A stretch of DNA of 34,697 nt from Acidobacterium sp. (GTDB taxonomy: Bacteria > Acidobacteriota > Terriglobia > Terriglobales > Acidobacteriaceae): contig PMUI01000059.1 of NCBI GenBank assembly GCA_003166955.1, forward strand, positions 1 through 34,697. Direction: 5' to 3'. Below, in pieces: positions 89 through 27,940 of this stretch. The notes below the pieces were generated by a model. It had not been told where the DNA came from. It was given only the letters and a program-made list of their open reading frames with translations, and did no database searches. The position numbers and the translations under genes were made by a program. Numbering within the stretch: position 1 is the first letter of the stretch; each line of letters opens with the position of its first letter.

Positions 89-160
89 CCCACCCTGGCG
101 CGCGAAACGGCCGCGCACCAGAATGGGGCACCCGGATTCATGGGGCATCCGGATTTTTCA
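89..160 (+). repeat. Hairpin repeat, copy 1
   Basis: Copy of the window's main interspersed element, just after the stop of the VWFA-related gene. The arms CTGG-C-GCGCG and CGCGC-A-CCAG pair around an AAACGGC loop; an outer CCCA/TGGG pairing and a GGCACCCGGATT tail follow. The tail is duplicated here (TGGGGCACCCGGATT then TGGGGCATCCGGATT). Bases 1-88 upstream hold no gene, only low-complexity GTTCGG/GGGATTAG-type sequence resembling that at 4260-4285 and 4864-4915. Confidence 0.85.
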
Positions 161-190
161 CCCGTCTGGGATCACGAACTCACCCGGGTT

Positions 191-3166
191 TTAGTTGGGG
201 AGTTTTTTGGATTCTTCTTTGGTGAGGACGCGGATTTGGGAGCCGAAGCGGCGGTAGTTGCGGAACTCGAATTCGTTGAGGACGGGGGCGTGTTTGGCTT
301 CGCGCAGGCTGATGGCGCCGCGGATGGGCAGGAGGTAGTCGTGGGTGCTGATGGAGATCCAGGAATAATCGATGGAGATGCTGGCGGCGCGGATGTCGAT
401 GGCCGGGGGGATATCGTCAGCCTCGACGGTGATGCGGCGGACGGCGCGGGTGGCGGCGTCGAGATAGAGGAGACCGTGGAAGCCGACCGGGCTTTGGCGG
501 TTATTTTTGTCGGATAACACGAAGCTGGAACTGGCGAGCGGGACGTTGAAGGTGAAGACCTGAACGGGGGCGCCATCGAGGACGTCGGATTCCTTCCAGG
601 CGAAGTCGGCGTGGGCGGAGGGATCGAAGAGGATGTGGAACATGGCGCCGAATTCACCGACGGACCAGGCGAACTGCAACTGGTCGGGGTGAATGGTGCT
701 GGGTTCTCCGTTGAGCTGGAGGGTGCTGCGGGTCTCGTGGTGATCGACGTAGCGAATGAGCTCGACGAGGGTGTCCTTGTGTTTCCAGTCGCCGTTGCCG
801 GTGGCGTCGGTGGAGTGGTTGGTGACTTCGACGCAGAAGAAGTTCTCGAGGGAATCGAACCAGGAGAGGGCGCGCTGACTGGCGGCTGTAATGATGTCGT
901 GGACTTCGGCATCGGTAGGCGGGGCGATGGGATGGGCGGGGCTGACGATGACGAAGAGGCTGCCGCGGATGGCGTCGGCTGAGGCAAGCTGGCGGGCTGC
1001 GGCATCGGACGATGCGGTGATGGATGCGGCGGGCGCGGTGGAGGCGGCGATGGTTCCTTCGACGGAGAACGTCGCAGTGCTTGTTACAGATTGGCCGTCC
1101 TGGGTGAGAACGGCTTCGACCTGATAGTTGCCGGGCGGGAAGACGCGGCCCTGGAGGGTGCCGTAATACGGGATAGCGGCACCGGTACCGGAGACTTTGT
1201 GGAGATCGAGGGGAAGGACGCCGAGGGATTCGCCATTGCGGCGGATGCGCATTTGGAGCTGGGGCTGGGCGGTGCTGCCGGCGAGGGGATGGACCATGAA
1301 GAAGAAGGAAAGCGCGCTGGTGTTCTCCGGGAGCTCGGTGTTGAGGCTGGGGAGGATGCGGCCGTCTTCGTAGCGCATGGGGTCGAAAGCGGCGGTGTCC
1401 TCGTGGACGGGCTCGACTTTCTGAACCAGAACGAGATCGCTGAGCGCGGGGCCGGGCGGGACGGGGGCGATGGTGAAGGTGGTGCGCTGAGCTCCTGCAA
1501 CGTTGCCGTTCGCATCGGCAACAGCGGTCTCGAGGGTGTAGGTGCCGGGGTCGGCGGAGAAGTGGTGCTGCATGGTGATGACCTGGCCGGGATCTTTGCG
1601 GAGCAGGTCAGGGCTTTCGTGGAGCGGGACATCCTGGCTGAAGCGGCGGAGGACGGCTCCCTGGCCGTTCTTGACGAGGGCGAGGATGGTGGCGTGGGCG
1701 GAGGAGATGTGGGTGTTGGCATCCTCGCGAATCTGGAGCTGGGAGACGGGAACTTCTACGGTGAGGTCGCCGGTGTTGCCGTCGGGCAGCTGGCCGAGGT
1801 GGAGCACGGCGGTGCGGAAGGCGATGGCGGTGGGCAGTTGCGGGCTCAAAAGGATTTTGAGCAGCGACGCTTCCCAGGGAAGGATGCCGGCGCTTTTGTC
1901 GGGGGGGACGGCGAAATAACCGGCGCGGGTGCGGACGATGAGGTCTTTGCGCAGGGGTCGGATGGCGATGGGACGGAAGGCGCCGTTGTAGTCGGTGATG
2001 GGGGGAATGTAGGAGGCTTCGTAATAGCTGGTGAGGTCGTCGTGGAGTTGCTGGAGCTGATGTTTTGAGCTTCCGCCGGCGCGGAGGTAAATGCCTCCGG
2101 TGGCGGAGGCGAGTTTGAGGAGGGGACTTTGATCGGCGTCCATGGCGCCGAACTGGAAAGCGGCGGTGTTGCGCTCGGAAACGGGGTTGAGTTCGGCACC
2201 GGGGATGAAGCCGGTTGGTGCGCCGCCGGACGCAGTGCTGGAGGAGAGGGCGCCGCCCATGCCGATGGTGGACATGGCCATGGCGGCCTGCATATGACCG
2301 CCGACCTGCTGGTCGATGGCATTGGTATCGATGGGGGAGATGGTGACGCCGGCGCGGTTGGCTTGACCGACGATGGAGGCGATGGCGTCGCGGGCATCGG
2401 AATTGGCACGGATGCCCTGAGCGAACCAAAGGATGACTTTGCGGCCGGCGATCTGACGCTGGCTTTCGGCGAGAGCCTGGAGGGCGGCGAGGGAAAGGAT
2501 GGCGTGCTGCTCTTCGACGATACGCTGGGAGTCTTCGAGCGCGGCGAGCAGGAGCCTGGCGTTGGCGCGCTGCGATGAGTCGACGTTGAGGGAATTGCTC
2601 TGGACGATGTCGAAGAGATGCTTTTCCGCGGGAGTGAAGCTGGCGGAGGGAGGGGAGGGATTGGTGGGTGTTGCGGCTGCGATGGCGGAGTCAATTTGCT
2701 GGCGATTGGGGGTGAAGGTCTGGAGGAGGCGGAGGCGGCCGTTGATCTGCAGGACGGCGAGGGAGTAGCCCTTTTCCGGAATGGCATTGAGAATTTTGGC
2801 AGCGATGCTGCGAGCGGCGCGGGCGGAAGAAGGGTCGAGGCGATCGAAGAGGAGAGTGACGAGGCGGTCCGATTTGGAGTTGCCGCTGACGAGTTGAAGG
2901 CCGGAGAGGTTGACCGTGGAACCATCGTCGGTGATGGCGAGGTCGGAGGGCTTGAGGTTGAGGACGGGTCTGTTGTGTTTGGTGCGGACGATGAGGTCGA
3001 GGGAGACTTCATCGGCGTTGGCGGTGAGGGAGGGGACTGCGGAGGGTGCATGGGGGGAGGAGGGTGCTTGCGCGGGGGAGGCGGAAATGGAGAGAGCGGC
3101 GAGAACGGCGGCAGGGAGAGCGATGCTGGAGATGCGAGACGCGTGGTAAGGCCAGGTGCGAGACAC
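191..3166 (-). CDS. Secreted VWFA-related protein (acidobacterial type)
   Basis: Encodes about 991 residues. The first ~34 residues form a signal peptide (Arg/His n-region, Ala/Leu core, Ala-X-Ala-like end SPAQA), so the product is exported. The segment from about residue 52 (DEVSLDLIVRTKHNRPVL, then LAITDDG) followed by LVTLLFDRLD near residue 108 matches the VWFA-related domain common in Acidobacteria; the long C-terminal part is not recognised. The reading frame is open up to 3382, but that extension is translated from low-complexity repeat DNA. I prefer the GTG at 3166, which has an AGAGGGGA-like ribosome site just upstream and places the signal peptide at the N-terminus. Role unknown; probably protein-protein or adhesion-type interactions in the envelope. 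It is monocistronic, with repeat elements at both ends. Confidence 0.8.
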   Translation of the reverse strand: MSRTWPYHASRISSIALPAAVLAALSISASPAQAPSSPHAPSAVPSLTANADEVSLDLIVRTKHNRPVLNLKPSDLAITDDGSTVNLSGLQLVSGNSKSDRLVTLLFDRLDPSSARAARSIAAKILNAIPEKGYSLAVLQINGRLRLLQTFTPNRQQIDSAIAAATPTNPSPPSASFTPAEKHLFDIVQSNSLNVDSSQRANARLLLAALEDSQRIVEEQHAILSLAALQALAESQRQIAGRKVILWFAQGIRANSDARDAIASIVGQANRAGVTISPIDTNAIDQQVGGHMQAAMAMSTIGMGGALSSSTASGGAPTGFIPGAELNPVSERNTAAFQFGAMDADQSPLLKLASATGGIYLRAGGSSKHQLQQLHDDLTSYYEASYIPPITDYNGAFRPIAIRPLRKDLIVRTRAGYFAVPPDKSAGILPWEASLLKILLSPQLPTAIAFRTAVLHLGQLPDGNTGDLTVEVPVSQLQIREDANTHISSAHATILALVKNGQGAVLRRFSQDVPLHESPDLLRKDPGQVITMQHHFSADPGTYTLETAVADANGNVAGAQRTTFTIAPVPPGPALSDLVLVQKVEPVHEDTAAFDPMRYEDGRILPSLNTELPENTSALSFFFMVHPLAGSTAQPQLQMRIRRNGESLGVLPLDLHKVSGTGAAIPYYGTLQGRVFPPGNYQVEAVLTQDGQSVTSTATFSVEGTIAASTAPAASITASSDAAARQLASADAIRGSLFVIVSPAHPIAPPTDAEVHDIITAASQRALSWFDSLENFFCVEVTNHSTDATGNGDWKHKDTLVELIRYVDHHETRSTLQLNGEPSTIHPDQLQFAWSVGEFGAMFHILFDPSAHADFAWKESDVLDGAPVQVFTFNVPLASSSFVLSDKNNRQSPVGFHGLLYLDAATRAVRRITVEADDIPPAIDIRAASISIDYSWISISTHDYLLPIRGAISLREAKHAPVLNEFEFRNYRRFGSQIRVLTKEESKKLPN

Positions 3167-3293
3167 GACCGATATTCCCCTCTTCGGATGAGGTCCAGGA
3201 AGGCTTTGGGAGCCGTTGGAGGCGGGCTCCTGCGGGCAAACCAACGATACCGCTCGGGAGAGGGGATCATAAGAAAAGATCGCGTTGAGCGGT

Positions 3294-3321
3294 TGGGAGC
3301 GGGGAGCCTGGAGCCTGGGGA
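3294..3321 (+). repeat. Degenerate 7-bp tandem repeat (4 units)
   Basis: Units TGGGAGC, GGGGAGC, CTGGAGC and CTGGGGA, immediately upstream of the VWFA-related gene. This array produces the spurious Pro/Arg/Leu-rich N-terminal extension of that reading frame. It belongs to the same period-7 class as several other intergenic arrays here. Confidence 0.65.
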
Positions 3322-3365
3322 GCAATCGGGAGAAAGCAGACCAGAGACGGTAATCAGCCGATCCC

Positions 3366-3661
3366 ACTCTCCACCCCACCACGCCAACGTCGGGGGTGGC
3401 GGGGAGCCCGGCCTGCTCGCGCGAAAGAGCGCCGCGCGCCCAGGATGGGCACCCGGATTTTCACTGGTCACGAACTAGCCCACCCTGGCGCGCGAAACGG
3501 CCGCGCGCCAGAATGGGGCACCCGGATTTTTCACTGGTCATAGGATCACGAACTACCCCTCCCTCCACCCCATCACGCCAACGGCGGGCGTGATGGAGAC
3601 CCCACCCTGGCGCGCGAAAAGGCCGCGCACCAGAATGGGGCACCCGGATTTCGGGCACCCG
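3366..3661 (+). repeat. Cluster of five hairpin repeats between two minus-strand genes
   Basis: This gene-free stretch consists almost entirely of repeat copies. A degenerate hairpin lies around 3374-3405. A variant at 3412-3477 has CCTG/CAGG outer and GCGCG/CGCGC inner pairing. The copy at 3479-3540 has an uninterrupted 10-bp stem, CTGGCGCGCG with CGCGCGCCAG. At 3570-3596 a 10-bp perfect stem of different sequence (CCATCACGCC with GGCGTGATGG) surrounds an AACGGCG loop. A standard copy lies at 3600-3661. The copies at 3412 and 3479 share the tail GGATTTTTCACTGGTCA (one T shorter at 3412). The cluster lies between the upstream end of the VWFA gene and the 3' end of the thioesterase gene. Confidence 0.85.
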
Positions 3662-3680
3662 AAGTGTTTCCGGAGTGTTC

Positions 3681-4202
3681 TCAGATTTTGGCGGGTTCGA
3701 ATTTTGGGATGTGGCGGCGGCGGGCTTCAGCTTCGCGGATTTCGCGGCGGCGGCCGGCTTCTTCATAGCGGCGTTTTTGCTCGTCGGTTTCCACATTCAG
3801 GGGCGGGACGGGGACGCGGCGTCCCTGGGGATCGATGGCGACAAAGGTGAGGTAGGCGGACGCGACGTGGCGGTGAATGCCGACGATGGTGTTTTCGACC
3901 CAGGCTTTGACGCCGACCTCCATGGAGGTTTTGAAGGCGCGGTTGACGGAGGATTTGAGGATGATGAGGTCGCCGACGTGGACGGGGGCGATGAAGTCGA
4001 TGTGCTCCATGGAGGCGGTGACGACGTGGCTGCGTGCGTGGCGGTAGGCAGCCATGGCGCCGACGAGGTCGATGAAGTTCATGAGACGGCCGCCGAGCAG
4101 GTTGCCCAGAGTGTTGGTGTCGTTGGGCAGAACCAGCTCGGTCATTTCCGATTGCGAGATGGCCACACTACGCGCCGGCAGCGCGGGGCCGTTGAGGTCC
4201 AT
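3681..4202 (-). CDS. Acyl-CoA thioesterase, YciA/BFIT-like hotdog fold
   Basis: 173 residues. It probably hydrolyses acyl-CoA to free acid and CoA in the cytoplasm. The segment NDTNTLGNLLGGRLMNFIDLVGAMAA matches the hotdog helix of the acyl-CoA hydrolase family, with the Asp of FIDLVG at the usual catalytic position. HIDFIAPVHVGDLI and the later VENTIVGIHRHVASAYLTFVAID are the typical central strands. The charged tail (EEAGRRREIREAEARRRH) is a common extension. The single-domain length fits the family. It stands alone between repeat-rich gaps; chain-length specificity cannot be read from the sequence. Confidence 0.88.
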   Translation of the reverse strand: MDLNGPALPARSVAISQSEMTELVLPNDTNTLGNLLGGRLMNFIDLVGAMAAYRHARSHVVTASMEHIDFIAPVHVGDLIILKSSVNRAFKTSMEVGVKAWVENTIVGIHRHVASAYLTFVAIDPQGRRVPVPPLNVETDEQKRRYEEAGRRREIREAEARRRHIPKFEPAKI

Positions 4203-4545
4203 GCTTGTCTCCTGATATCAGGGTACAGAAAGACACGGAATAGGGAACAGGGAACAGGACGGCGTTCGGAGCTCGGCGTTAGCAAAAGGACCCCAACGTG
4301 GAAGGATTTGGGTCGTTGCTACGCGACGAGTCGCTCGCCACGGTTCGCGGGTCCTTCGACTGCGCGCCGGGAGATTGCATCGCATCGCTGAGAGGTCTGT
4401 TGCGGCGCTTCGCTCAGGATGACAACCTTAACTATGGGCCTGGAGCGTTCACAATAGAAAAGAGACGCCTGCAGAACTGATGTGCTGGTGCGCGAGACTG
4501 GAGGATGGGACATCATGAAGGGGCTGAGGAGGCGTGCGGACAAGT
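4203..4545 (+). repeat. Repeat-rich gap with heptamers and a 'CTTCGCTCAGGATGACA' element
   Basis: No gene was seen here. Bases 4237-4257 hold three 7-bp units (GGAATAG, GGAACAG, GGAACAG). Bases ~4311-4427 hold an element ending in CTTCGCTCAGGATGACA (4408-4424); the same 17-mer occurs at 9950-9966 inside the lhr gene. A short GCGAC/GTCGC inverted repeat sits at 4323-4334. AGGAGG at 4527-4532 is the ribosome site of the next gene. Confidence 0.7.
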
Positions 4546-4863
4546 ATGGATAAAGTGAGGGGACTGAAGGAGATTCTGGAGCAGGATCCGAAGAACGCTT
4601 TTGCTCGATACGGGCTGGCGATGGAATTTGCGGGACGCGGGGAGACGGAGGCGGCGCTGGAGGAATTCAGGCGGCTGCTCGAGGATCATCCGGACTACAC
4701 GGCGGGATATTTCATGGCGGCGCAGACGCTGGCGAAGGCGAGGCGCGAGGCTGAGGCGAAGCAACAGCTGGTGGACGGGCTGGTGTGCGCCAAGAGGACG
4801 GGGAATCAGCATGCGGCGCGGGAGATGCAGGCGATGCTGGACGAGATGGAGATGCCGAAATAA
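4546..4863 (+). CDS. Small tetratricopeptide-repeat protein
   Basis: 105 residues, without signal peptide. Two to three TPR-like helical pairs are visible: LEQDPKNAFARYGLAMEFAGRGETEAALEEF, then LLEDHPDYTAGYFMAAQTLAKARREAEA, with the alternating small and aromatic positions of TPR motifs. It probably acts as a small protein-protein adaptor; no partner is evident. ATG 4546 is chosen because AGGAGG lies upstream (4527-4532); the in-frame GTG at 4534 is too close to that site. The following gene is co-oriented 165 bp downstream. Confidence 0.75.
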   Translation: MDKVRGLKEILEQDPKNAFARYGLAMEFAGRGETEAALEEFRRLLEDHPDYTAGYFMAAQTLAKARREAEAKQQLVDGLVCAKRTGNQHAAREMQAMLDEMEMPK

Positions 4864-4898
4864 GACAGGGATTAGGGATTAGAGTTCAGGGATCAGAA
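4864..4898 (+). repeat. Degenerate 7-bp tandem repeat (5 units)
   Basis: Units GACAGGG, ATTAGGG, ATTAGAG, TTCAGGG and ATCAGAA begin directly after the stop of the TPR gene. The period is 7 with the AGGG core retained. Confidence 0.7.
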
Positions 4899-5028
4899 GA
4901 GCGAATGGCGTTCAGGAGACCGGAGAGAGGAGACGGAAGACAGGGCACGCGGGCTTGTTCAAAGAAAATGCGGTCGATTCTGCATTGTGCAAGACGGGGA
5001 GGCTGGACGCGGGCATAATGACTCAATC

Positions 5029-5634
5029 ATGAGAATTCCGCTGTTCCCGCTGGACCTGGTGCTTTTTCCTGGAGCGGCACTGCCGCTTCATATCTTCGAA
5101 GCGCGATATCGGGAGATGGTGGCGGAATGCCTGTCGGAGCGCAAGGTATTCGGAGTAGTGCGGTCCGATGGAGAACAGATGGCGATCATGGGGTGCACGG
5201 CGAAGATTGTGCGCGTGGTGCGGCGTTTCGACGACGGGAAGTTCGACGTTTTATGTGAGGGTGTGCAGCGGTTTGAAATTGAGGCGCTGGATGAGTCACG
5301 CAGCTTTCTGCAGGCCGATGTGGAAGTTTTCGAGGACGAGGGCGCGAGATCGACGCGGACGGATCGCGAGGACTGCGCGGCGCTGCATTTTGCGACGCTG
5401 CAGATGGCGGGGATTCAAATACCGGCGATGCATTTGGATCTGAACGCGCCGGTGGCGTTTCAGCTGGCGGACGCGCTGCCGTCGGATTTAGGGTTCAAGC
5501 AGCGTTTGCTGGCGAGCCGTTCAGATGCGGATCGGACGACGAGGCTGCGGGATTTTTATAACGAGATGCTGCCGCGGCTGCGCGCGAAGGAAGATGCGAG
5601 CCGAGCGGGGCAGGCCAGCTTCCCCATACACTAA
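5029..5634 (+). CDS. LON substrate-binding (N-terminal) domain protein
   Basis: 201 residues. The opening MRIPLFPLDLVLFPGAALPLHIFEARYREM is the hallmark start of the LON N-terminal/PUA-like domain. It is followed by FGVV and the GCTAKIVRVVRRFDDGKFDVLCEGVQRF strand region. No ATPase or protease domain follows, so this is a stand-alone LON-domain protein of unknown partner, perhaps substrate-binding in protein quality control. ATG 5029 is chosen because it puts the conserved RIPLFPLDLVLFPG motif at the very N-terminus; an in-frame GTG at 4987 would add 14 unconserved residues. A 15-bp repeat array starts 8 bp after the stop. Confidence 0.85.
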   Translation: MRIPLFPLDLVLFPGAALPLHIFEARYREMVAECLSERKVFGVVRSDGEQMAIMGCTAKIVRVVRRFDDGKFDVLCEGVQRFEIEALDESRSFLQADVEVFEDEGARSTRTDREDCAALHFATLQMAGIQIPAMHLDLNAPVAFQLADALPSDLGFKQRLLASRSDADRTTRLRDFYNEMLPRLRAKEDASRAGQASFPIH

Positions 5635-5642
5635 TTGCAGTA

Positions 5643-5717
5643 GTCAGCGAAAATACGGTCAGCGGAGAAGCGGTCAGCGAAGAAGCAGCCAGCAAAGAAA
5701 CGGTCAGCGATACGAGA
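5643..5717 (+). repeat. 15-bp tandem repeat array, upstream copy
   Basis: Five units of consensus GTCAGCGAAGAAGCG, at 5643, 5658, 5673, 5688 and 5703, each exactly 15 bp apart with 1-5 changes; the last unit is the most diverged. A related array lies on the other side of the AAA ATPase gene (7374-7429). Confidence 0.85.
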
Positions 5718-5811
5718 CGCTGCGACGGTGCGGGCGCAAAGGCGTCCAATAGAAAGCCACCGGATCGGCACAGACCAGGACAGGCACAGGACACAAGGGA
5801 CAGGAGCAGCG

Positions 5812-7371
5812 ATGGCGACTCGACAGACGACACCCAGCCGAACGGAGCATTCACGCGCGCACCTGCCGCAAACGCTGGGCGAGTTGCGGGGGAGCCGCGA
5901 ATACAGCGAGACGCGACTGCGGACGCGCATGGTGAAGGACGAGATGCGCGAGAACCTGATTTGCCGGCTGAAGGCAAAGCAGGCGGTGTTTCCAGGAATT
6001 ATCGGCTACGAGGACACGGTGGTGCCGCAGATTGTGAACGCGGTGCTGTCGCGGCAGAATTTTATTCTGCTGGGGCTGCGGGGGCAGGCGAAGAGCCGCA
6101 TTCTGCGCGCACTGACGGCGCTGCTGGACGAGCACATGCCGTATGTGGCGGGATGCGAGATTCGAGACAATCCTTATGCGCCGCTGTGCCGGCGTTGCAG
6201 GGATTTGATTGTGGAGTGCGGCGATGCGACGCAGCTGGGGTGGTTGTCGCGCGATGAGAGATATGTGGAGAAGCTTGCGACGCCGGATGTGACGGTGGCG
6301 GATCTGATTGGGGACCTCGATCCGATCAAGGCTGCGCGCGGCGGGCATGATCTGGCCAGCGAGATGACGATGCACTATGGGCTGCTGCCCAGGGCGAATC
6401 GCGGCATTTTTGCGGTGAACGAGCTGCCGGACCTGGCGGGGAAGATTCAGGTGGCGCTGTTCAACATCATGCAGGAAGGCGATGTGCAGATTAAGGGGTA
6501 CCCGGTGCGGCTGGAGCTGGATGTGGCGCTGGTGTTCAGCGCGAATCCTGAGGACTACACGGCGCGCGGGAAGATAGTGACGCCGCTGAAGGATCGGATT
6601 GGGTCGGAGATTCGCACGCATTATCCGGAGACGCTGGAGGAAGGGATTGCGATTACGGCGCAGGAGGCGTGGACGGAGCGCGAAAGCGGGGATGCGGAGA
6701 TTCCGCAGTATCTGCGGGAGGTGATCGAGCAGGTGGCGTTCACGGCGCGCGAGGACAAGAAGGTGGACAAGCGCAGCGGTGTGAGCCAAAGGCTGCCGAT
6801 TGCGACGCTGGAACTGGCGATGTCAAATGCGGAGCGTCGGGCGCTGCTGCATGGCGAGACGCGGGTGGTGCCGCGGGTGGGAGATTTGTATACCGCGCTG
6901 CCGGGAATCACGGGGAAGCTGGAGCTGGAATACGAAGGTGAGATGAAGGGCGCGGACACAGTGGTGCGGGATATTGTGCGCGCGGCGATTGGGAAGGCGT
7001 TCGATCGCTACTTTGGCGACGTGAACACGCAGCAGATCGAGCAGTGGTTCAATCTGGGCGGGACGGTGAAGATTTCCGACGTTCAGGCGGCGAAGGCGAC
7101 GCTGGAGGAGCTGAAGCAGATTCAGGGATTGATGGAGAAGCTGGCTCCGTTGGGGGTGAAAAGCGGGGATGGGGCGGAAATTGTAACAGCGGCTGCGGAA
7201 TTTCTGCTGGAGGGGATGTGCGCGCATCGACGGATCAGCCGGAATGAGGAGCGGAGCTTTTCCGCGCAGAGGAAGGCGCAGGAGAAGCCGGAGCGGGTGG
7301 AGAGGGCGGAACCGGAACGGGATTATGAGCAGTGGCAGAGTAGACGGACGCGGAGAGGGAGCTTTAATTAG
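5812..7371 (+). CDS. AAA ATPase, magnesium-chelatase/MoxR-like
   Basis: 519 residues. Walker A is GLRGQAKSR (residues 88-96), a variant with Ala where Gly is usual. Walker B is RGIFAVNELPDL (~197-208), with Asn-Glu in place of Asp-Glu. Sensor 1 is VFSANPEDY and DRIGSEIRTHYP is the arginine-finger region. Between Walker A and B an insert contains four cysteines (C115, C126, C129, C136) that could bind a metal. The family is the Mg-chelatase I/MoxR group, whose members usually remodel a target with a VWA partner; such a VWA gene follows 152 bp downstream. ATG 5812 has AGGAG six bases upstream; the frame is open further upstream to 5728 through repeat-like sequence. Substrate unknown. Confidence 0.85.
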   Translation: MATRQTTPSRTEHSRAHLPQTLGELRGSREYSETRLRTRMVKDEMRENLICRLKAKQAVFPGIIGYEDTVVPQIVNAVLSRQNFILLGLRGQAKSRILRALTALLDEHMPYVAGCEIRDNPYAPLCRRCRDLIVECGDATQLGWLSRDERYVEKLATPDVTVADLIGDLDPIKAARGGHDLASEMTMHYGLLPRANRGIFAVNELPDLAGKIQVALFNIMQEGDVQIKGYPVRLELDVALVFSANPEDYTARGKIVTPLKDRIGSEIRTHYPETLEEGIAITAQEAWTERESGDAEIPQYLREVIEQVAFTAREDKKVDKRSGVSQRLPIATLELAMSNAERRALLHGETRVVPRVGDLYTALPGITGKLELEYEGEMKGADTVVRDIVRAAIGKAFDRYFGDVNTQQIEQWFNLGGTVKISDVQAAKATLEELKQIQGLMEKLAPLGVKSGDGAEIVTAAAEFLLEGMCAHRRISRNEERSFSAQRKAQEKPERVERAEPERDYEQWQSRRTRRGSFN

Positions 7372-7373
7372 CG

Positions 7374-7429
7374 GTTCGCTGAAAAGTGGTTAACTGAGAA
7401 GCGGTCAGCTAGAAGCGGTCGGCGTTCGG
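7374..7429 (+). repeat. 15-bp tandem repeat array, downstream copy
   Basis: Units GTTCGCTGAAAAGTG, GTTAACTGAGAAGCG, GTCAGCTAGAAGCG (one base short) and a partial GTCGGCG unit, starting 3 bp after the AAA gene stop. They relate to the array at 5643-5717 (consensus GTCAGCGAAGAAGCG). Confidence 0.75.
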
Positions 7430-7464
7430 ATAAGCAGGAGATGGTAGACAGTCGACAGAAACTA

Positions 7465-7520
7465 CCACACCCTGGCGCGCGAAAAGGCCGCGCACGAGAA
7501 TGGGGCACCCGGATTTTTCA
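7465..7520 (+). repeat. Hairpin repeat abutting the VWA gene start
   Basis: Standard copy with GCGCG/CGCGC inner arms and an AAAAGGC loop. The outer arm is altered (CGAG for CCAG). The GGCACCCGGATTTTTCA tail ends only 3 bases before ATG 7524, and the repeat carries an in-frame ATG at 7500. Confidence 0.85.
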
Positions 7521-7523
7521 ACT

Positions 7524-8759
7524 ATGAAGAGTGTTCGGTATACGAAGTTCACGGGCGATCTGGCGAGCGAGATGAGCATGGAGGATTTGCTCAAGGCGCT
7601 GTCGGATTATTTGCTGGACTCGGGATTTCAGAATCCGTATGCGGAGTTTCAGGACCTCGATCAGACGATGGAGGATCTGAAGGAGGCGGTGCGGCAGGCG
7701 CTGGAGCAGGGCGATGCGTTCGACGAGAGCATTCAGCAGAAGATCGACCAGATGGCCGCGGAGGGGAAGCTGGATGAACTGATCGATAAGCTGATCGAGC
7801 GGATGGAGAGGGAGAATTATATTTCGACGCAGTCTTCGCAGCAGCAGGGGCAGGTGACACAAGCTTCGGGGCAGATGGGCGGACCGCAGACGGACGCGCG
7901 TTTCGAGGTGACGGACAAGAGCCTGGACTTTTTGGGATACAAGACGCTGCGGGATTTGTTGGGGTCGCTGGGGAAATCGAATTTTGGGCGGCATGACACG
8001 CGACATTTTGCGACGGGCGTGGAGACGAGTGGCGGATCGCAGCCGTATGAGTTTGGGGACACGCTGAACCTCGATGCTGCGGCAACGCTGAAGTCGGCGA
8101 TTGCGCGCGAGGGGCTGACGCTGCCGTTGAATATGGAGTACAGCGACTTGCAGGTCCATCAGAGCGAGTATCAGAGCTCGTGCGCGACGGTGGTGATGCT
8201 GGACTGTTCGCACTCGATGATTTTGTACGGCGAGGATCGGTTTACGCCGGCGAAGAAGGTGGCGATGGCGATGGCACATCTGATCCGGACGCAGTATCCG
8301 GGAGACACGCTGTCGCTGGTGCTGTTTCACGATTCGGCGGAAGAGCTGCCGGTGTCGCAGCTGGCGCGGGTGAAGGTGGGGCCGTACTACACGAACACGC
8401 GCGAGGGCTTGCGGATGTCGCAGAGGATTTTGTCGCGGCAACGGAAAGACATGAAGCAGATTGTGATGATCACGGATGGGAAGCCGTCGGCGCTGACGCT
8501 GCCGGATGGGCGGATTTACAAGAATGCTTTTGGGCTGGATCCGCTGGTGGTGAGCGAGACGCTGGAGGAAGTGTCGCGCTGCAAGCGGCAGAACATCATG
8601 ATCAATACATTTATGCTGGCGTCGGATTTTGGGCTGGTGCAGTTTGTGCAGAAGGTGACGCAGATGTGCAAGGGGAAGGCGTACTTTACGACTCCGGAGA
8701 CCCTTGGGGAGTATCTGCTGATGGATTACATGCAGCGGCGGATGAAGACGATCCACTGA
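7524..8759 (+). CDS. VWA (CoxE/BchD-like) partner protein
   Basis: 411 residues. The N-terminal ~100 are helical and acidic ([18 protein letters not shown], then repeated [24 protein letters not shown]). A Gln-rich linker (~102-120) precedes a VWA domain with MIDAS motif D227-C-S229-H-S231 and a later ITDGK (Asp 318). It probably works as the metal-dependent adhesion partner of the upstream AAA ATPase, as in chelatase and MoxR-VWA pairs. The start is uncertain: ATG 7524 gives [11 protein letters not shown], whereas ATG 7500 inside the adjacent repeat would add MGHPDFST. Neither has a convincing ribosome site. Convergent with lhr. Confidence 0.85.
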
Positions 8760-8760
8760 G

Positions 8761-8795
8761 GGGCAGGGAGTAGGCAATAGGGAGTAGGGAGTAGA
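8761..8795 (+). repeat. Degenerate 7-bp tandem repeat (5 units)
   Basis: Units GGGCAGG, GAGTAGG, CAATAGG, GAGTAGG and GAGTAGA fill most of the 51-bp gap between the convergent VWA and lhr genes. No conventional terminator hairpin is visible there. Confidence 0.75.
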
Positions 8796-8810
8796 AGAGC
8801 TGAAGTCCGG

Positions 8811-13724
<4,914 letters not shown>

Positions 13725-13744
13725 GTCTGAGGTGAGGATACTGC

Positions 13745-13765
13745 GGGGGGCTGGGAGCTGGGACC
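13745..13765 (+). repeat. Short 7-bp tandem repeat (3 units)
   Basis: Units GGGGGGC, TGGGAGC and TGGGACC lie between the lhr start and the hairpin repeat at 13787, giving the heptamer-then-hairpin order seen elsewhere. Confidence 0.5.
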
Positions 13766-13786
13766 GAGTCGCGCTGACGCGCGACG

Positions 13787-13870
13787 CCCACCCTGGCGCG
13801 CCAACAGCAGGCGCACCAGAATGGGGCACCCGGATTCACGATGGGGCACCCGATTATCAATGGGGCACCA
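13787..13870 (+). repeat. Hairpin repeat with triplicated tail
   Basis: Arms CTGG-C-GCGCC and GGCGC-A-CCAG with an AACAGCA loop. The TGGGGCACC tail unit appears three times (13822, 13842, 13861). It fills the gap between the lhr start and the stop of cheR. Confidence 0.88.
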
Positions 13871-13880
13871 GGTTTATTTG

Positions 13881-15793: not shown

Positions 15794-16161
15794 AGTTCAT
15801 CGACTCCCGCCATGCGGAGCTTGTCGAGGAGGCCCGCTTCATCAAAGGGTTTGACGAGGTACTCATCGGCGCCGGCGAGGAGGGCGGCTTCGATGTGGTC
15901 GTTTTCGGCTTCGGTGGTGACCATCACGATTTTGGTGGCGTCGAGGTCATGGTCGGCGCGCGCGGCCTGAACCATCTCGATGCCGGACATGACGGGCATA
16001 TTCCAGTCGACGAGGGCGACGGTGAAGGGACCAGAGGTGCGGAGACAGGCAAGGCCCTGCTTGCCGTCGGCCGCCTCCATGCACTCGACGCCATGTTCGG
16101 CAAAGAGGGAGTGCAGGAAGTTGCGGATGAAGCGTGAGTCGTCGACGACCAGGGCGCGCAT
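15790..16161 (-). CDS. cheY: CheY-like single-domain response regulator
   Basis: 123 residues, a receiver domain only. The acidic pocket is D7/D8 and the phosphorylation site D52 (LVDWNMPVMSG). The conserved T82 is in MVTTEA and K104 in YLVKPF. It is the likely output of the CheA kinase here. An AAGGA ribosome site lies six bases before the ATG. It is 26 bp after cheW and overlaps cheB by four bases. Whether it acts on a flagellar motor or another output cannot be told, since no motility gene is in the window. Confidence 0.92.
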   Translation of the reverse strand: MRALVVDDSRFIRNFLHSLFAEHGVECMEAADGKQGLACLRTSGPFTVALVDWNMPVMSGIEMVQAARADHDLDATKIVMVTTEAENDHIEAALLAGADEYLVKPFDEAGLLDKLRMAGVDEL

Positions 16162-16187
16162 GGATTTCCTTTCGCTGCCCTCCGGCC

Positions 16188-16646
16188 TCAGGCGGGGAAG
16201 GCGCTGGCGAGACGCATCGGATCGAGGCGCTCGGGTTCGAGGCTGACCAGAAGGCGATCTTTGAGTTTCCAGGTGCCGTCGAAGAGGGCCTGGCGGCGGG
16301 CTTCGAGGGTGGCCGGATTGGGTTCATGATCGGCGGCAGAGACGTGGAGGACTTCGCCGACGGAGTCGACGAAGAGGCCGAAGAGGCCGTCACCGTTCTC
16401 GAAGACGAGGACATCTTCGGGGGATTTGGCGGACTCCATGCCGAGCAGGCGGCGGAGAGAGACGGCGGTCAGGACTTCGCCGCGGTAATGGACGAGTCCG
16501 CCGACGAAGTAAGGAGCCAGAGGGACGGGCTGGGTGGCGGGCTTGCCGAGGATTTCGAGCACATGGGCGATGGGGATGCCGAAGAGCGTGTCGCCGACGA
16601 CTACGGAACAGACTTCCTGGGTTGGGCTGGCGTGTGTGTCATTCAT
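16188..16646 (-). CDS. cheW: CheW-type coupling protein
   Basis: 152 residues, one CheW domain. EVCSVVVGDTLFGIPIAHVLEIL, PYFVGGLVHYRGEVLTAVSLRRLLGM and GLFGLFVDSVGEVLHV follow the usual CheW beta-barrel pattern. It would link receptors to CheA. Its start overlaps the cheA stop (ATGA). Confidence 0.92.
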   Translation of the reverse strand: MNDTHASPTQEVCSVVVGDTLFGIPIAHVLEILGKPATQPVPLAPYFVGGLVHYRGEVLTAVSLRRLLGMESAKSPEDVLVFENGDGLFGLFVDSVGEVLHVSAADHEPNPATLEARRQALFDGTWKLKDRLLVSLEPERLDPMRLASAFPA

Positions 16647-18943
16647 AGCGTTTGCTCCGCGTGCTGCTCGACGAGATTCTCGAGGGGAGGAATAGCGGCG
16701 AGGCTGACGATGCAGGTGACCTTCTCATGAAGGAGGGTGATGCCTTCGGCGACGAGGCCCGAGCCGGCCTCCTCGAGCTGGCGGCCGCCGGTCACGTCGA
16801 GGACCTGAGAGACGGTCATGCCGACGTGGCGCTGGCCATCGCGGCAGACGACGACGGTGGTCTGGGCCTCGGGGTCGTCGGTTTGGCGGATGAGGTCGCC
16901 GGCGGCATCGTCGAGGGGCAGAAGGGCACCCTCGAAGCGAAGGACGGGACGGGAGCCGGCACGCTCGATACGGGAGCGCGGAATACGCTCGATGCGGACC
17001 ACAGTTTCCAGCGGCAGAGCGGCGCGGCGGTCGCCGGTTTCGACGAGCAGGAAGTCATGCTGGCCCGCGCGGTTTTCGTCGGCCGCCTCTTCGATCTCAG
17101 CGGTGAGGCTGACGCCTGCGTTCTGGGCAATGGCGCCGGGATTGAGGATGAGAGCCATTTCGCCGTTGCCGAGGATGGTGGCGCCGGCATAGAGACCGAT
17201 TTCGCGCAGGACGGCGGCCAGCGGTTTGACGACGATTTCTTCCGGATCGGCGAGACCGTCCACGACCAGGCCAAAGCGGCGGCCATCGGCATTCAGAATG
17301 GCGATGTCGCAGGGAGCGCCGGGCTCGCGGGGAGACTGCTGGAGCAGGCGATCGAGAAAGACGAGGGGGAGCAGGCGTCCGCGGAGACGGTAGAGGGCGG
17401 CATTTTCGAGGCGCTCGATGCGGCCGTCGTTTTCGCCGGTGCTCAGGTGCACCAGCTCGGTGAGCGAACCCTGGGGGACGGCGAAGTTTTGTCCGCGGCT
17501 GCGCACGATGAGCGCGGGGATGATGGCGAGAGTGAGCGGTATACGGAGGCGCAGGACGGTGCCTTTGCCGGCGCGGCTGTCGACTTCGACCTTGCCGCCG
17601 ATTTTTTCCACGTTGGTGCGGACCACGTCCATGCCGACGCCGCGTCCGGAGACGCTGGTGACGGTGGCCGCCGTGGAGAAGCCGGGCAAAAAGATGAGCT
17701 GCAGGATTTCGCGCTCATTCATCAGTTCGGCGCGCTGCGGCGGGACGAGCTGCTTTTCGACAGCTTTTTGGCGGATCTTCTCGATGCTCATGCCCGCGCC
17801 GTCGTCGTGCACCTCGACGATGACGTGGCTGCCCTCGTGACAGGCGCGCAGGCGGACCACGCCTTCGGCGGCCTTGCCCTGCGCGACGCGGACATCGGGC
17901 ATCTCGATGCCGTGGTCGATGGAGTTGCGGATGGAATGGGTGAGCGGATCGCGGATGGCCTCGAGCAGGCTCTTGTCGAGCTCGGTTTCCTGGCCTTCCA
18001 TTTCGAGGCGGACTTTTTTATCGAGGCCGAGCGCAAGGTCGCGGACCAGGCGGGGGAAGCGCGAAAAGACGTGGCTGACGGGCTGCATGCGCGCCTTCAT
18101 CACGGATTCGCGGAGGTCGGCGGTGACCATATCGAGGCGGCGGCCAAGGATGGCGAAGCCGGCGTCGGCATTGGTGGCCTGAAGAATCTGGTTGCGGGTG
18201 AGGACCAGCTCGCCGACAAGATTCATCATGCGGTTGAGCAACTCGACGTCGACGCGCAGGGTGGAGTCGGCGGTGCCGGAGGTGGAGGGCGCCTGTGTTT
18301 CCGGCGCGGGCGATTCGCTCGCGGGCCGCGCCGGAAGCGAAGGTGCGGCGACAGCGGGGGCCGGAGAAGGTTCCGGTTCCGGCTCCGACGCAAGTTCTTC
18401 GGCTTCCGTGGGCGGCCCTGCCTCTCCGGAATCAGCCGGTGGAGGCGCACCCTGGTGGCTGCGCTTGCGGGGCGCGCGCGGTTTATGGGTCTTGCCGGGA
18501 TGACCGGGAGCCTCGACGGTGGTCGCGGCCAGCTCGGGTTCGGCAACGGCCGTGGATGTGTCGCCGAGTTGTAACTTTTCAAGGCGCGCGATCATGGCGG
18601 CATCCTGCTGCTGGCTTTCGCCCTCGGCGCCTGTGGTCTCGATGGAGCGAAGAACGCCGCGCAGTATGTCCATGAGAGAAAGCAGACCGCTGACGATGGC
18701 GGGGTTGGCGGCTAGCTTGCCGTCGCGGAGCAGGCCGAGAAGGTTTTCGCCGGCATGGGAGAGCGCCTCGAGGCGGCTGAATCCGAGGAATCCGGTGGTG
18801 CCCTTGATGGTATGCACGGAGCGGAAAATGTCGGCGAGCAGTTCCGCGTCGCCAGGGCGCACTTCCAGGTCAGTGAGGCACCGCTCCATGCGGTCCAGGC
18901 CTTCCTGGCTTTCGAGCAGAAATTCGCGAGTGAGGTCGTCCAC
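16643..18943 (-). CDS. cheA: Chemotaxis histidine kinase CheA with two CheW-like domains
   Basis: 766 residues. The HPt domain (1-105) has phosphorylatable H44 in SVHTIKGTTGF. An Ala/Pro/Glu linker (~125-225) lacks an obvious CheY-binding P2 domain. The dimerisation domain covers ~228-290 (VELLNRMMNLVGELVLTRN) and the ATPase ~310-470 (HSIRNSIDHGIE, DDGAGMS, SGRGVGMDVV). The first CheW-like regulatory domain spans ~475-610. A second CheW-like segment (~628-760) contains DFLLVETGDRRAALPL and GALLPLDD. The start is GTG 18943, with no ATG nearby and a weak ribosome site. It leads the operon; the 75-bp gap to the divergent cdd gene must hold both promoters. Confidence 0.93.
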   Translation of the reverse strand: MDDLTREFLLESQEGLDRMERCLTDLEVRPGDAELLADIFRSVHTIKGTTGFLGFSRLEALSHAGENLLGLLRDGKLAANPAIVSGLLSLMDILRGVLRSIETTGAEGESQQQDAAMIARLEKLQLGDTSTAVAEPELAATTVEAPGHPGKTHKPRAPRKRSHQGAPPPADSGEAGPPTEAEELASEPEPEPSPAPAVAAPSLPARPASESPAPETQAPSTSGTADSTLRVDVELLNRMMNLVGELVLTRNQILQATNADAGFAILGRRLDMVTADLRESVMKARMQPVSHVFSRFPRLVRDLALGLDKKVRLEMEGQETELDKSLLEAIRDPLTHSIRNSIDHGIEMPDVRVAQGKAAEGVVRLRACHEGSHVIVEVHDDGAGMSIEKIRQKAVEKQLVPPQRAELMNEREILQLIFLPGFSTAATVTSVSGRGVGMDVVRTNVEKIGGKVEVDSRAGKGTVLRLRIPLTLAIIPALIVRSRGQNFAVPQGSLTELVHLSTGENDGRIERLENAALYRLRGRLLPLVFLDRLLQQSPREPGAPCDIAILNADGRRFGLVVDGLADPEEIVVKPLAAVLREIGLYAGATILGNGEMALILNPGAIAQNAGVSLTAEIEEAADENRAGQHDFLLVETGDRRAALPLETVVRIERIPRSRIERAGSRPVLRFEGALLPLDDAAGDLIRQTDDPEAQTTVVVCRDGQRHVGMTVSQVLDVTGGRQLEEAGSGLVAEGITLLHEKVTCIVSLAAIPPLENLVEQHAEQTL

Positions 18944-19018
18944 GAGTTGGTTATCGGATGGAGCGGGAGGAACTTGAGTGCTGTTGCCGGTCGAGGGTGA
19001 AGCGGGTAGCCTCAGACC

Positions 19019-19435
19019 ATGTCAGGGATCGATGAAGGGACACTGGAACGGTTGCGAAAGGCGGCGATGGACGCCGCAGCGCACGCGTACGCGCCGTATT
19101 CGAAATTTTATGTTGGGGCGGCACTGCTGTTCGACGACGGGTCGGTGTACACGGGATGCAACGTGGAGAACGCCTCGTATGGATTGACGAGCTGCGCGGA
19201 GCGGAATGCCCTGTTTCGAGCCATCAGTGAGCGGGGGGCGGCGCCGAGAATCCAGGCAATTGCGGTGGTGAATCGCAACGGAGCGGCGGGGCCGCCATGC
19301 GGGGCGTGCCGGCAGGTGATGAGCGAATTTGTGACGGCCGATGCGGTGGTGAGTTTTCCTGGCGCTGAAGGACCGGAGACGCGGAGTTTTGCGGAACTTT
19401 TTCCGTGGAGCTTTGCGCTGGAGAGGCAGCCATGA
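19019..19435 (+). CDS. cdd: Cytidine deaminase
   Basis: 138 residues, the length of the homotetrameric type. It deaminates cytidine and deoxycytidine to uridine and deoxyuridine. Zinc ligands and the catalytic Glu are seen in TSCAERNALF (Cys-Ala-Glu) and GPPCGACRQ (two Cys). YAPYSKFYVGAA and GCNVENASYG are the substrate-binding segments. It overlaps the next gene by ATGA, coupling deamination to phosphorolysis. Confidence 0.95.
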   Translation: MSGIDEGTLERLRKAAMDAAAHAYAPYSKFYVGAALLFDDGSVYTGCNVENASYGLTSCAERNALFRAISERGAAPRIQAIAVVNRNGAAGPPCGACRQVMSEFVTADAVVSFPGAEGPETRSFAELFPWSFALERQP

Positions 19436-20796
19436 GCGCGGCGTTGCACGCGGTGGATGTGATCCGGAAGAAGCGGGACGGCGAGGAGCTTAGGCCCGAG
19501 GAGATTCGGTTTGTGGTGGAGGGGGCGGCGCGGGAGACGATTCCGGAGGAGCAGCTGGCGGCGTGGCTGATGGCGGTGTTTCTGCGCGGGCTGACGCTGG
19601 GGGAACTGGACACGCTGACCACGGCGATGCGGTATTCGGGCGAAGTGCTGGACCACACGGGGCTGGGGCGGAAGACGGTGGATAAGCACTCGACGGGAGG
19701 GGTGGGGGACAAGACATCGTTCCTGGTGGCTCCGATTGCGGCCGCGGCGGGGCTGGCGGATCCGATGATCAGCGGGAGGGCGCTGGGGCACACGGGCGGA
19801 ACGCTGGACAAGCTGGAGTCGATTCCTGGGTATCGGACGCAGCTTTCGCTGCCGGAGATGCGGAAGGTGCTGGAGAGGTGCGGCGCGTCGATTGTGGGAC
19901 AGACGAAGAATCTGGTTCCGGCGGATCGGAAGCTCTACAGCCTGAGAGACAGGACGGCGACGGTTGAGAATCCTTATCTGATTTGCGCATCGATTATGAG
20001 CAAGAAGCTGGCAGCGGGGCTGGACGGGCTGACGATCGATGTGAAGACGGGGTCGGGTGCGTTTTTGCGGAATGAGGAGGACGCGCGTTATCTGGCGGCG
20101 CTGATGGTGGAGACGGGCGAGCGCGCGGGAACGCAGACGGTGGCGGTGCTGACGGATATGAGCCAGCCGCTGGGGCGGATGGCGGGGAACTGGGTGGAGA
20201 TTGCCGAGTCGATGGAGTTGTTGCGCGGAGGGCGCGATCCGCTGAACGAGGATTTACGGGAGGTTTCGCTGATTTTGGCGGGATGGATGATTTATCTGGG
20301 CGGCAATGCGAGGAGCGCAGAGGCGGGGCAGCGGATGGCGGAGGAGAAGCTGGAGGACGGATCGGCGCTGAAGGTGTTTCGCGAGATGGTGGAGGCGCAG
20401 GGGGGCGATGTGCAGGCGCTGGATGCGGGGATGGAGTTTCACAAGCCGAAGTTTCGGCGAGAATTTCGCGCGATGCGGAGCGGATATTTTGTGTCGGCGG
20501 ACTGCACGAAGATTGGATGGGCAGTGCAGCGGCTGGGCGCGGGGCGGGAGCGGGCGGGCGAATCAGTGGAGGCGCATGCGGGGCTGGAGATGCATGTAAA
20601 GCTGGGGGCGAGGATTGAGGCTGGGCAGGTGCTGGCGACGTTGTTTGCGCAGGACGAGGAGAGGTTCGCGGAACCGGAGCATTTGCTGACGGAGGCGCTG
20701 AGGATTGGCGATGAGGCGATTGCTGCGCCGCCGCTGGTGCGGGAGATTATCTCGGCGGAAAACAAGGAGGTTTTTTTGGGGCGGATCAGCCGGTAG
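19432..20796 (+). CDS. deoA: Thymidine/pyrimidine-nucleoside phosphorylase
   Basis: 454 residues. It cleaves thymidine, deoxyuridine or uridine with phosphate to base and sugar-1-phosphate. The signature SGRALGHTGGTLDKLES and phosphate-site DKHSTGGVGDKTS are present, followed by KTGSGAF. The length fits family members with the C-terminal domain (HVKLGARIEAGQVLATLFA). I cannot tell thymidine-specific DeoA from broader Pdp. ATG 19432 overlaps the cdd stop. A 7-bp repeat array overlaps the stop codon. Confidence 0.92.
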   Translation: MSAALHAVDVIRKKRDGEELRPEEIRFVVEGAARETIPEEQLAAWLMAVFLRGLTLGELDTLTTAMRYSGEVLDHTGLGRKTVDKHSTGGVGDKTSFLVAPIAAAAGLADPMISGRALGHTGGTLDKLESIPGYRTQLSLPEMRKVLERCGASIVGQTKNLVPADRKLYSLRDRTATVENPYLICASIMSKKLAAGLDGLTIDVKTGSGAFLRNEEDARYLAALMVETGERAGTQTVAVLTDMSQPLGRMAGNWVEIAESMELLRGGRDPLNEDLREVSLILAGWMIYLGGNARSAEAGQRMAEEKLEDGSALKVFREMVEAQGGDVQALDAGMEFHKPKFRREFRAMRSGYFVSADCTKIGWAVQRLGAGRERAGESVEAHAGLEMHVKLGARIEAGQVLATLFAQDEERFAEPEHLLTEALRIGDEAIAAPPLVREIISAENKEVFLGRISR

Positions 20797-20812: not shown

Positions 20813-20838
20813 AGAATGGATCGCGCCGGAGCGCGATG

Positions 20839-20902
20839 CCCACCCTGGCGCGCGAAAAAGCCGCGCACCAGAATGGGGCACCCGGGTTCCTTGGGGCACC
20901 CG
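20839..20902 (+). repeat. Hairpin repeat between deoA and the transporter gene
   Basis: GCGCG/CGCGC inner arms with an AAAAAGC loop and CTGG/CCAG outer arms. The tail is CACCCGGGTTCC, then a second GGGGCACCC unit. It sits in the 181-bp gap within an otherwise continuous nucleoside operon. Confidence 0.85.
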
Positions 20903-20966
20903 TGTTCGTGGCCGAGTTTTTGGCTGAGAAATTTTGGAAACCCGGGTAGGATGCAGAGAAAACCTT

Positions 20967-20972: not shown

Positions 20973-20977
20973 ACAAT

Positions 20978-22237: not shown

Positions 22238-22239
22238 CC

Positions 22240-23064: not shown

Positions 23065-23083
23065 GTGTAGGTTGTGACGCGTC

Positions 23084-24415: not shown

Positions 24416-24440
24416 CAAGCGTGAGTATAGCGGGTGAAAA

Positions 24441-24475
24441 GCAGGAAGCAGGAAGCCGGAAGCTGGAAGCAGAAG
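24441..24475 (+). repeat. 7-bp tandem repeat (5 units)
   Basis: GCAGGAA, GCAGGAA, GCCGGAA, GCTGGAA and GCAGAAG, between the S1/P1 nuclease start and the aminopeptidase stop. Confidence 0.75.
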
Positions 24476-24493
24476 GCCTGAGATTTGTGCCGG

Positions 24494-25849: not shown

Positions 25850-26096
25850 TGAAGGGAAGTGTAACGGGTCGCCCCAGGGGCGGGGCTCGCGTGAAGCTGT
25901 GTTTTCCCAAAATGGTCCAGGACAGTACTTTCGGACTGAACAGAGGGTCGATTCGTATTGACGATCGGGTCGTGGGGAGAGTCAGCTACTTGCTGTGGGG
26001 TGAACCTGGCCGTTCGCTGCTTTTGGGGGTAGCTTCTCTTTTTTTTCCGCCGGAGATCACACACTGGGCATCGCGCGCAGGCTGTAGAGGCGAGCT
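25850..26096 (+). other. Gene-free gap upstream of the aminopeptidase
   Basis: 247 bp between two minus-strand genes. It holds a CGCCCC-A-GGGGCG palindrome (25870-25882) close to the aminopeptidase start, and a T-run (26037-26046) that reads as a run of A on the transcribed minus strand. No promoter or terminator could be assigned with confidence. Confidence 0.4.
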
Positions 26097-27758: not shown

Positions 27759-27763
27759 GAAGG

Positions 27764-27868
27764 TACAGGGTATATAGGGAACAGGGAATAGGGAATAGGG
27801 AACGTGGTAGCTGGTAGCTGGGAGCTGGGAGCGGGGAGCTGGGAGCCTGTAGCCGGTAGCGGGTAGCA
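27764..27868 (+). repeat. Long degenerate 7-bp tandem repeat (15 units)
   Basis: Fifteen consecutive heptamers drift from TACAGGG through GGAATAG to GGTAGCT, GGGAGCT and GGTAGCG with no loss of register. The array begins five bases upstream of the glycosyltransferase ATG and is followed directly by a hairpin repeat. Confidence 0.85.
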
Positions 27869-27873
27869 AACTA

Positions 27874-27940
27874 CCCCACCATGCTCGCGCGGAAAGGCGC
27901 CGCGCGCCCAGGATGGGGCACCCGCGTTTGAGGAACCCGG
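27874..27940 (+). repeat. Hairpin repeat (variant stem)
   Basis: Contains CTCGCGCGG and CCGCGCGCCCAGG arms around an AAAGGCG loop, resembling the variant at 3412-3444, then GGGGCACCCG. It ends six bases before the stop of the outer-membrane protein gene. Confidence 0.8.

Follow-up and report, generated by a model that had tools for sequence, protein, structure and literature searches.

Hairpin element in the window

The DNA analyzed here (the window) is the whole of contig C88, 34,697 bases long, which belongs to an Acidobacteriaceae draft genome of 5.41 Mb (142 contigs). Scattered along it are copies of a short hairpin that ends in a constant foot (GGGGCACCC) and that probably represents a mobile element of the repetitive extragenic palindromic (REP) type. 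A first-pass annotation had listed ten places as dispersed copies of such a hairpin, and nine of these were recognized as copies of one element by a covariance model, all on the plus strand, with matches at 82, 3400, 3472, 3594, 7459, 12763, 13780, 20832 and 27868. The tenth place, at 3570, had to be removed from the family (Table 1). The inner stems GCGCG/CGCGC and GCGCC/GGCGC, the 7-base loop and the perfect stem at 3479 are all as that annotation had described them. No tRNA was found in the window.

Table 1. Copies of the hairpin element and related features in the window
Feature	Position	Strand	Remarks
Copy 1	89..135	+	foot 125-135; second foot 142-152
Copy 2, long-stem variant	3407..3456	+	foot one base short (3446-3456)
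Copy 3	3479..3525	+	inner stem perfect, 10 bp
Separate perfect 10-bp hairpin	3570..3596	+	similar loop, no GGGGCACCC foot; not called by the covariance model
Copy 4	3600..3647	+	
Copy 5	7465..7512	+	
Lhr-type helicase gene	8811..13724	-	bounds from our own dicodon gene caller
Copy 6	12726..12831	+	hairpin and foot 12769-12816; partial head repeat before, second foot after (12821)
Copy 7	13787..13872	+	copy to 13833, then two more feet at 13843 and 13862
Copy 8	20839..20903	+	second foot at 20893
Copy 9, long-stem variant	27874..27925	+	

The covariance model (R1) was built from 48 aligned copies (alignment A1), for which two partial tails of the 49 listed copies were omitted, a hand-set copy (window 3404-3463) was added and the headless tail L040 was left unused. 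When the genome was scanned with this model at E≤0.001, 150 of 6276 first-look candidates being scored, so that weak copies may be missed, 83 matches were obtained, one of which (C116:111792) is a reverse self-match of another copy. Of the remaining 82 copies 79 were placed, the three dropped being those on C109, C135 and C34, whose surroundings were unfetched. A pattern of the 19-base tail, with at most one mismatch allowed, gave 44 matches in the genome compared with none for the reversed control.

The foot is constant throughout the family and GGGCACCC is invariant in alignment A1, while the inner stems are diverse, with 72 distinct inserts among 77 parsed copies. Extra feet lie near 14 of the 79 copies. 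A small hairpin of the form GATCGCGC-n-GCGCGATG lies before the head of up to 21 of the 79 copies, this class being set by the end motif; in the form GATCGCGC-nnn-GCGCGATG it covaries and directly abuts the head of the element, for instance at window positions 20815-20838. Another recurring hairpin, of the type CGCC-AAC..CG-GGCG, is found directly upstream of some copies (window 3376-3412 and 3570-3596, and near 3740 in L037), and has GGGGA or GGAGA where the usual foot stands.

Folding strand and covariation of the arms

On the plus strand, on which the hairpin had been described, the outer stem seems to be interrupted, with CC facing AA, followed by C facing A. Read on the complement, the interruptions are G-T wobbles, and the copy at 3600 forms 17 unbroken pairs there (-17.8 versus -14.0 kcal/mol). 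The described layout of the stem thus holds, but in the copies examined most of its supposed mismatches are wobbles of the other strand. Over 77 copies the plus-type strand shows 1034 Watson-Crick cells, 166 C-A cells, 36 G-T cells (23 of them at the outermost position) and 150 other non-pairs, cells which owing to shared descent among the copies are not independent; at the sixth pair 74 of the 77 copies carry C-A, which is G-T on the complement. The complement, referred to as the REP strand in the following, is the more stable one in 70 of the 77 copies with DNA parameters and in 73 with RNA parameters, and the same is true of 26 of 28 elements selected by hand from other genomes. The hairpin thus folds better on the strand opposite to the one originally read. 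In this orientation the element reads 5'-CCGGGTG foot and continues with an imperfect hairpin made up of CCCCAT, stem, 7-base loop, stem and GGGTGGGG; apart from its unusual foot it is built like a REP.

For the arm-swap test, which depends on neither alignment nor pairing, conserved anchors set the points at which the arms were cut, and 59 distinct arm pairs resulted; two of the 79 copies were unparsable, one or more of the parsed inserts are visibly in error, and inserts shorter than 22 bases were excluded from the arm pairs. The observed arms form 6.17 of nine inner Watson-Crick pairs, compared with a mean of 3.66 (standard deviation 0.24) and a maximum of 4.46 in 2000 swaps. In the MAFFT alignment A1 none of 500 shuffles matched the covariation score, 91.1% of the cells pair versus 87.7% after shuffling, and cells with both sides changed number 20 versus 4.9; the fold that RNAalifold itself derives from A1 keeps only nine pairs, of which two are changed on both sides. 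Covariation of the arms thus far exceeds chance expectation, which bears out the compensatory changes proposed in the first-pass annotation.

Such pairing might also arise without selection. Template switching at quasi-palindromes is a known mutational route and could copy one arm onto the other in inert relics, as the perfect inner stems of some copies would suggest. This route predicts Watson-Crick perfection, however, whereas almost all copies keep the C-A at the sixth pair (a feature that shared descent may explain in part), and it leaves both the conserved foot and the transposase link described below unexplained. We consider it very unlikely as the source of the covariation.

Association with a transposase in relatives

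Three genes for REP-associated tyrosine transposases (RAYTs) were found in the genome of the window, all flanked by hairpins different from the element, and a link within this genome was therefore rejected. A search of the genus revealed a second RAYT clade, the genes of which are flanked by hairpins of the element's design. A profile of this clade built from six sequences (A2) has matches, which also take in the other RAYT clade, in 126 of 150 genomes. No more than three of them are in the window's own genome, the best with E 3.1e-18, compared with E 6e-69 or better for 30 fetched loci of the clade. In these 30 loci, which are the best ones and represent one locus per genome, a hairpin with GGGGCACCC lies within 600 bp of the RAYT gene in 27 cases, or in 22 of 25 if the five loci used for building the profile are left out; as the hairpin finder required pairing, the pairing seen in this set is no independent test. 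Among 18 control loci of the other clade, from which L229 and the short or divergent L242, L243, L245 and L248 were omitted, only two contain such a hairpin anywhere in the locus. The stems at the RAYT loci vary among genomes (CCCACATCTGCC..., CCCAGGTTAGC..., CCCCGCCCTGTCTC...), and 19 of the 30 loci combine a minus copy upstream of the gene with a plus copy downstream.

The clade proteins contain a Y1 domain with the HUH motif (MPEHVH is invariant in the six aligned), their profile matches the solved TnpA-REP structure 4er8 (E 7e-15), and the five proteins scored all lie above the NCBIfam cut-off for REP-associated tyrosine transposases. Hairpin ends and a Y1 transposase are equally common to the IS200/IS605 elements, and a strand preference is on record for IS608 and ISDra2 (PMC6006769), so that decayed ends of an ordinary member of that group, an origin which the first-pass annotation had named as a possible refutation, had to be considered. 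The same five proteins, however, score 23 to 44 bits and stay below the IS200/IS605 TnpA cut-off of 55 bits, and no second end type at a fixed distance was noticed, although none was searched for. Such an origin appears extremely improbable.

The element is very probably moved by the small RAYT that adjoins it in relatives. A linked Y1 transposase of the TnpA-REP type, which the first-pass annotation had proposed to look for, was accordingly found in other genomes, and the REP-like character of the family was upheld through the relatives only, as the RAYTs of the genome itself carry different hairpins. Broken RAYT-type genes were also observed, in L247 and L248, beside hairpins in G033 and beside other palindromes in G068.

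Distribution and insertion sites

Matches to model R1 (E≤0.001) were found in 52 of 100 genomes, namely in all 12 of the genus (the window's own included), in 37 of 48 from the rest of the family, in one of 14 from another family of the order and in two of 26 from the class. A scan of named genomes yielded 47 stretches, 26 of them from Acidobacterium or Acidobacteriaceae, four from other acidobacteria and 17 from other organisms; the last are single and mostly hairpin-free matches, with the exception of one Phycisphaerae metagenome-assembled genome (three stretches). This genome, 8_bin.18, has on three contigs (L199, L208, L218) five exact tail matches, four of which follow CCCCCACCCTTCCGCTCGCT and come close to the design of the element, which may indicate either a relative outside the Acidobacteria or mis-binned DNA.

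Of the 79 placed copies, 75 lie outside the called genes and four inside, so the dispersal is mainly intergenic. Copy 6 is one of the latter and sits in antisense within the Lhr helicase gene, between the DEAD and Helicase_C domains, with the reading frame kept. Twelve genomes were searched for this site and 11 compared, G067 being unreadable there: the insert is present in the window's genome and in G063 and the site is empty in nine of the 11. Relative to G061, in which the site is empty, the insert adds about 33 residues to the protein, and G061 is 94% identical to the window's genome over the next 102 residues. The site is empty in G064 too, which by eye has flanking residues in common with G063. 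This pattern calls for either two separate insertions at the same position or loss on more than one occasion. For copy 7 a counterpart foot exists in G064 but in none of the other nine fetched Lhr loci, within their reach.

The copies tend to lie just past stop codons, which is a REP-like placement: for the 49 genes which, on the foot side, are directed into the element, the median distance from the stop codon to the copy is 27 nt, and 36 of these genes end within 50 nt of it. RNA transcribed in this direction would correspond to the strongly folding strand, and an RNA element, i.e. a terminator or an mRNA-stabilizing 3' hairpin whose arms are kept paired by selection on the RNA, would account for both observations. 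However, 26 of 75 neighbours on the foot side have the opposite direction and start away from the element (median 161 nt), and the orientation of the copies follows the GC skew, as shown below, rather than the genes. Moreover, no Rfam match was obtained in the window at gathering scores, and in window positions 1-20000, which leave two copies outside, no terminator-like match covers a whole hairpin, two weak ones overlapping the copy at 7465. A function as RNA, which had also been raised in the first-pass annotation, is thus little supported, and we regard it as quite improbable.

Orientation and GC skew

All 14 contigs of the genome that carry two or more copies are strand-uniform (57 copies). 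On the strand of the copy all 41 stretches have a positive GC skew, several of them overlapping or lying on the same contig, and in flanks of 3 kb 78 of the 79 copies lie on the locally G-rich strand, with a median skew of 0.261; the sole exception, C55:1425, is the weakest match of all. The same holds for 11 of 11 feet (one of them without a clear head) in eight small stretches of four related genomes, which were chosen at model matches. The orientation is locked to the G-rich strand, and this points to movement via single-stranded DNA.

Transcription was tried as a cause of the orientation and rejected, since the gene-strand bias, based on genes called with our own dicodon script, is positive in only 17 of the 41 stretches. 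The skew is similar in genes co-oriented with the copies (0.223) and in anti-oriented ones (0.245), and amounts to 0.405 and 0.536, respectively, at third codon positions. Integron attC arrays, which were considered because of the uniform orientation, were dropped by eye; the attC consensus was not searched for.

Replication is inferred as the cause of the strand locking, but the skew of the genome is a mosaic, and the two complete relatives show no skew on the scale of replichores. Stretches with a skew near +0.25, 0 and -0.2 alternate within contigs of the genome; the typical GC skew given in SkewDB is about 2.5% (PMC8941118). Whole-chromosome replichores were rejected in view of the near-zero mean skew on the two sides of dnaA in G032 (-0.027 and -0.002) and G047 (0.011 and 0.012). 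Near dnaA itself the sign of the skew fits a G-rich leading strand in G032 (over about 30 kb), but not in G047 or in the window's genome, and elongation-factor genes gave no consistent sign. Skew domains of tens of kb were observed on contigs C116, C121, C97, C79 and C39 and in the window, with a flip within C116 near 70 kb, and on these contigs the third-position skew reaches up to 0.6 in genes of both directions.

A second REP-like family of the genome (mostly GGCACGRC-TTCA-GYCGTGCC) occurs at window positions 30295-30314 and in 15 further hairpins of the fetched stretches, and was seen beside RAYTs of the other clade. It is polar too, with 13 of 14 GGCAC-type copies and 15 of 16 hairpins with TTCA or TGAA loops, counted by sign. 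For both families it is the C-rich strand that bears the 5' foot, as judged by eye for the second family.

The polarity could also mean that the copies are strand-polar functional DNA sites, serving in fork restart, chromosome orientation or nucleoid binding, which are held in place by selection and whose RAYT link is ancestral. The near-total restriction to one strand agrees with this, and so do the genomes G034 and G035, which have 38 and 21 model matches without any match to the RAYT profile at E≤0.001, and the scarcity of copies in low-skew DNA, where only three of the 79 copies lie compared with 20 of 59 control windows from 20 stretches of our choice (Fisher P 3e-6). Yet the scattered presence at orthologous sites, the insertion within a gene and the copies adjoining RAYTs are the behaviour of a mobile element, and polarity alone fits an insertion bias, so that functional sites seem an unlikely explanation. 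Also unlikely is a combination in which strict insertion of RAYT-type elements into one exposed strand makes the orientation a genome-wide record of past fork direction in the Acidobacteriaceae, with the skew arranged in domains, and in which the intact strand-polar hairpins of genomes that have lost the transposase have been co-opted as single-stranded fork sites.

Comparison with known systems

The element resembles the REP-RAYT system of the E. coli type (PMC6006769, PMC3733652, PMC8266576) in being a small hairpin, dispersed and preceded in REP orientation by a 5' foot, in the cognate Y1 transposase gene flanked by copies, in the copies placed just past stops and in the occasional in-frame insertion within genes. 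Unlike there, the stems of the element differ between genomes. The BIMEs and REPINs are inverted pairs, while the copies of the window's genome are strand-uniform and mostly single units, although inverted copies do occur around the RAYT genes of relatives; with the REPINs the element shares the link to a RAYT and compensatory changes in the hairpin, as reported in PMC3116915. Canonical REPs are defined by GT[AG]G, with atypical structures in some subclasses, according to PMC6006769, and the element is a RAYT-associated, REP-type element outside this canonical foot.

The closest case within the phylum are the TIRYT/TIRtron systems, tyrosine transposases with flanking inverted repeats, the acidobacterial group of which was called sharply defined in 2013 (PMC3733652). 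Examples listed there are T. saanensis 392, K. versatilis 1552 and 3447, A. capsulatum 645 and G. mallensis 794, and of the three TIRYT genes of K. versatilis only one has repeats that belong to a repeat family (PMC3733652). As in our case RAYT-like genes stand between inverted repeats, some of the repeats are self-complementary and one set forms a repeat family; on the other hand the consensus printed in that paper for only some of the repeats, GGGGWSAS, is broken by GGGGCACC at base 5 (W). In the main text of that paper the words "leading" and "skew" are absent.

IS608 and ISDra2 are likewise moved by Y1 HUH enzymes that act on single-stranded hairpins, and show a bias for one replication strand, favouring the lagging-strand template (PMC6006769); in contrast to them the element is a non-autonomous hairpin. 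The nearest hint at strand locking of REPs is found in PMC3116915, where tandem arrays on one chromosome are forward near 2 Mbp and reverse near 4 Mbp. Literature searches on REP/RAYT, TIRYT, acidobacterial repeats, Koribacter and the IS200 bias, and on REP/RAYT orientation or GC skew, brought up among their top results no title or abstract start that describes the element or a strand locking of REPs. The suggestion of the first-pass annotation that the family is undescribed is borne out only in part, as an acidobacterial transposase group with flanking inverted repeats is already in print. What a specialist would not expect are the strand locking and the wobbles specific to one strand.

Origin of the element

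Taken together we consider it likely that the element represents a REP-type hairpin of the Acidobacteriaceae which is mobile but non-autonomous and is recognized as single-stranded DNA by one clade of RAYTs (HUH, Y1), its restriction to one strand coming about, as far as we can infer, via replication forks. This reading is favoured because of the dispersal, the conserved foot, the changing but still paired stems and the stronger fold of the REP strand, and because of the adjacency to the RAYT clade in many genera, the filled and empty site in the Lhr gene and the orientation to the G-rich strand. The RAYT would bind the foot together with the hairpin and would cut and paste single-stranded DNA, and it may meet its substrate or its target on one strand only, namely the strand exposed at replication forks. 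Insertion into one strand would lock the orientation, and a later inversion would turn skew and copies together. In the window's genome the copies probably owe their spread to a RAYT that was lost afterwards or that the assembly does not contain.

There are nevertheless several points that weigh against such an origin. The foot, 5'-CCGGGTG before CCCC, differs from the canonical REP foot GT[AG]G, which lies 0-2 nt from the stem. No RAYT of the element's clade was found in the window's genome with profile A2 and RAYT searches, and the copies there look orphaned for this reason; G034 and G035 are in the same situation, so that copies persist where the search finds no transposase. Three of the 30 clade loci have no hairpin according to the finder, which is permissive and also accepts three of 14 tail matches that occur singly in unrelated named genomes, and model R1 matches one locus of the other clade (L226, E 1.3e-7). 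For seven of the 77 copies the REP strand has no advantage in folding when DNA parameters are used. The polarity is weaker in other genomes, with 40 of 47 loci in surroundings of 3 kb (41 of 48 with L099), a count that includes weak matches and the inverted copies flanking RAYTs. In tandem gene settings 35 copies are antisense to both neighbours versus 17 in sense (P 0.009). Finally, no replichore-scale GC skew was found in the two complete relatives, G032 and G047, with 20 samples each, so a coupling of the skew to the direction of the fork is tentative.

The dissemination of REPs has been called poorly understood (PMC8266576). The combination of near-total polarity, covarying stems and a constant foot makes the strand use of the enzyme and an insertion that follows the fork directly testable, and the element may serve as a marker for the skew domains of Acidobacteriaceae genomes.

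Additional observations

The Lhr gene contains a second, unrelated variable insert after the residues FLGG in L343, L347 and L349 (G063, G064 and G062, respectively). In the window, degenerate 7-base tandem repeats (AAGCAGG, TGGTAGC, GTACAGG) were noted at 24439-24472, 27805-27867 and 28759-28821.

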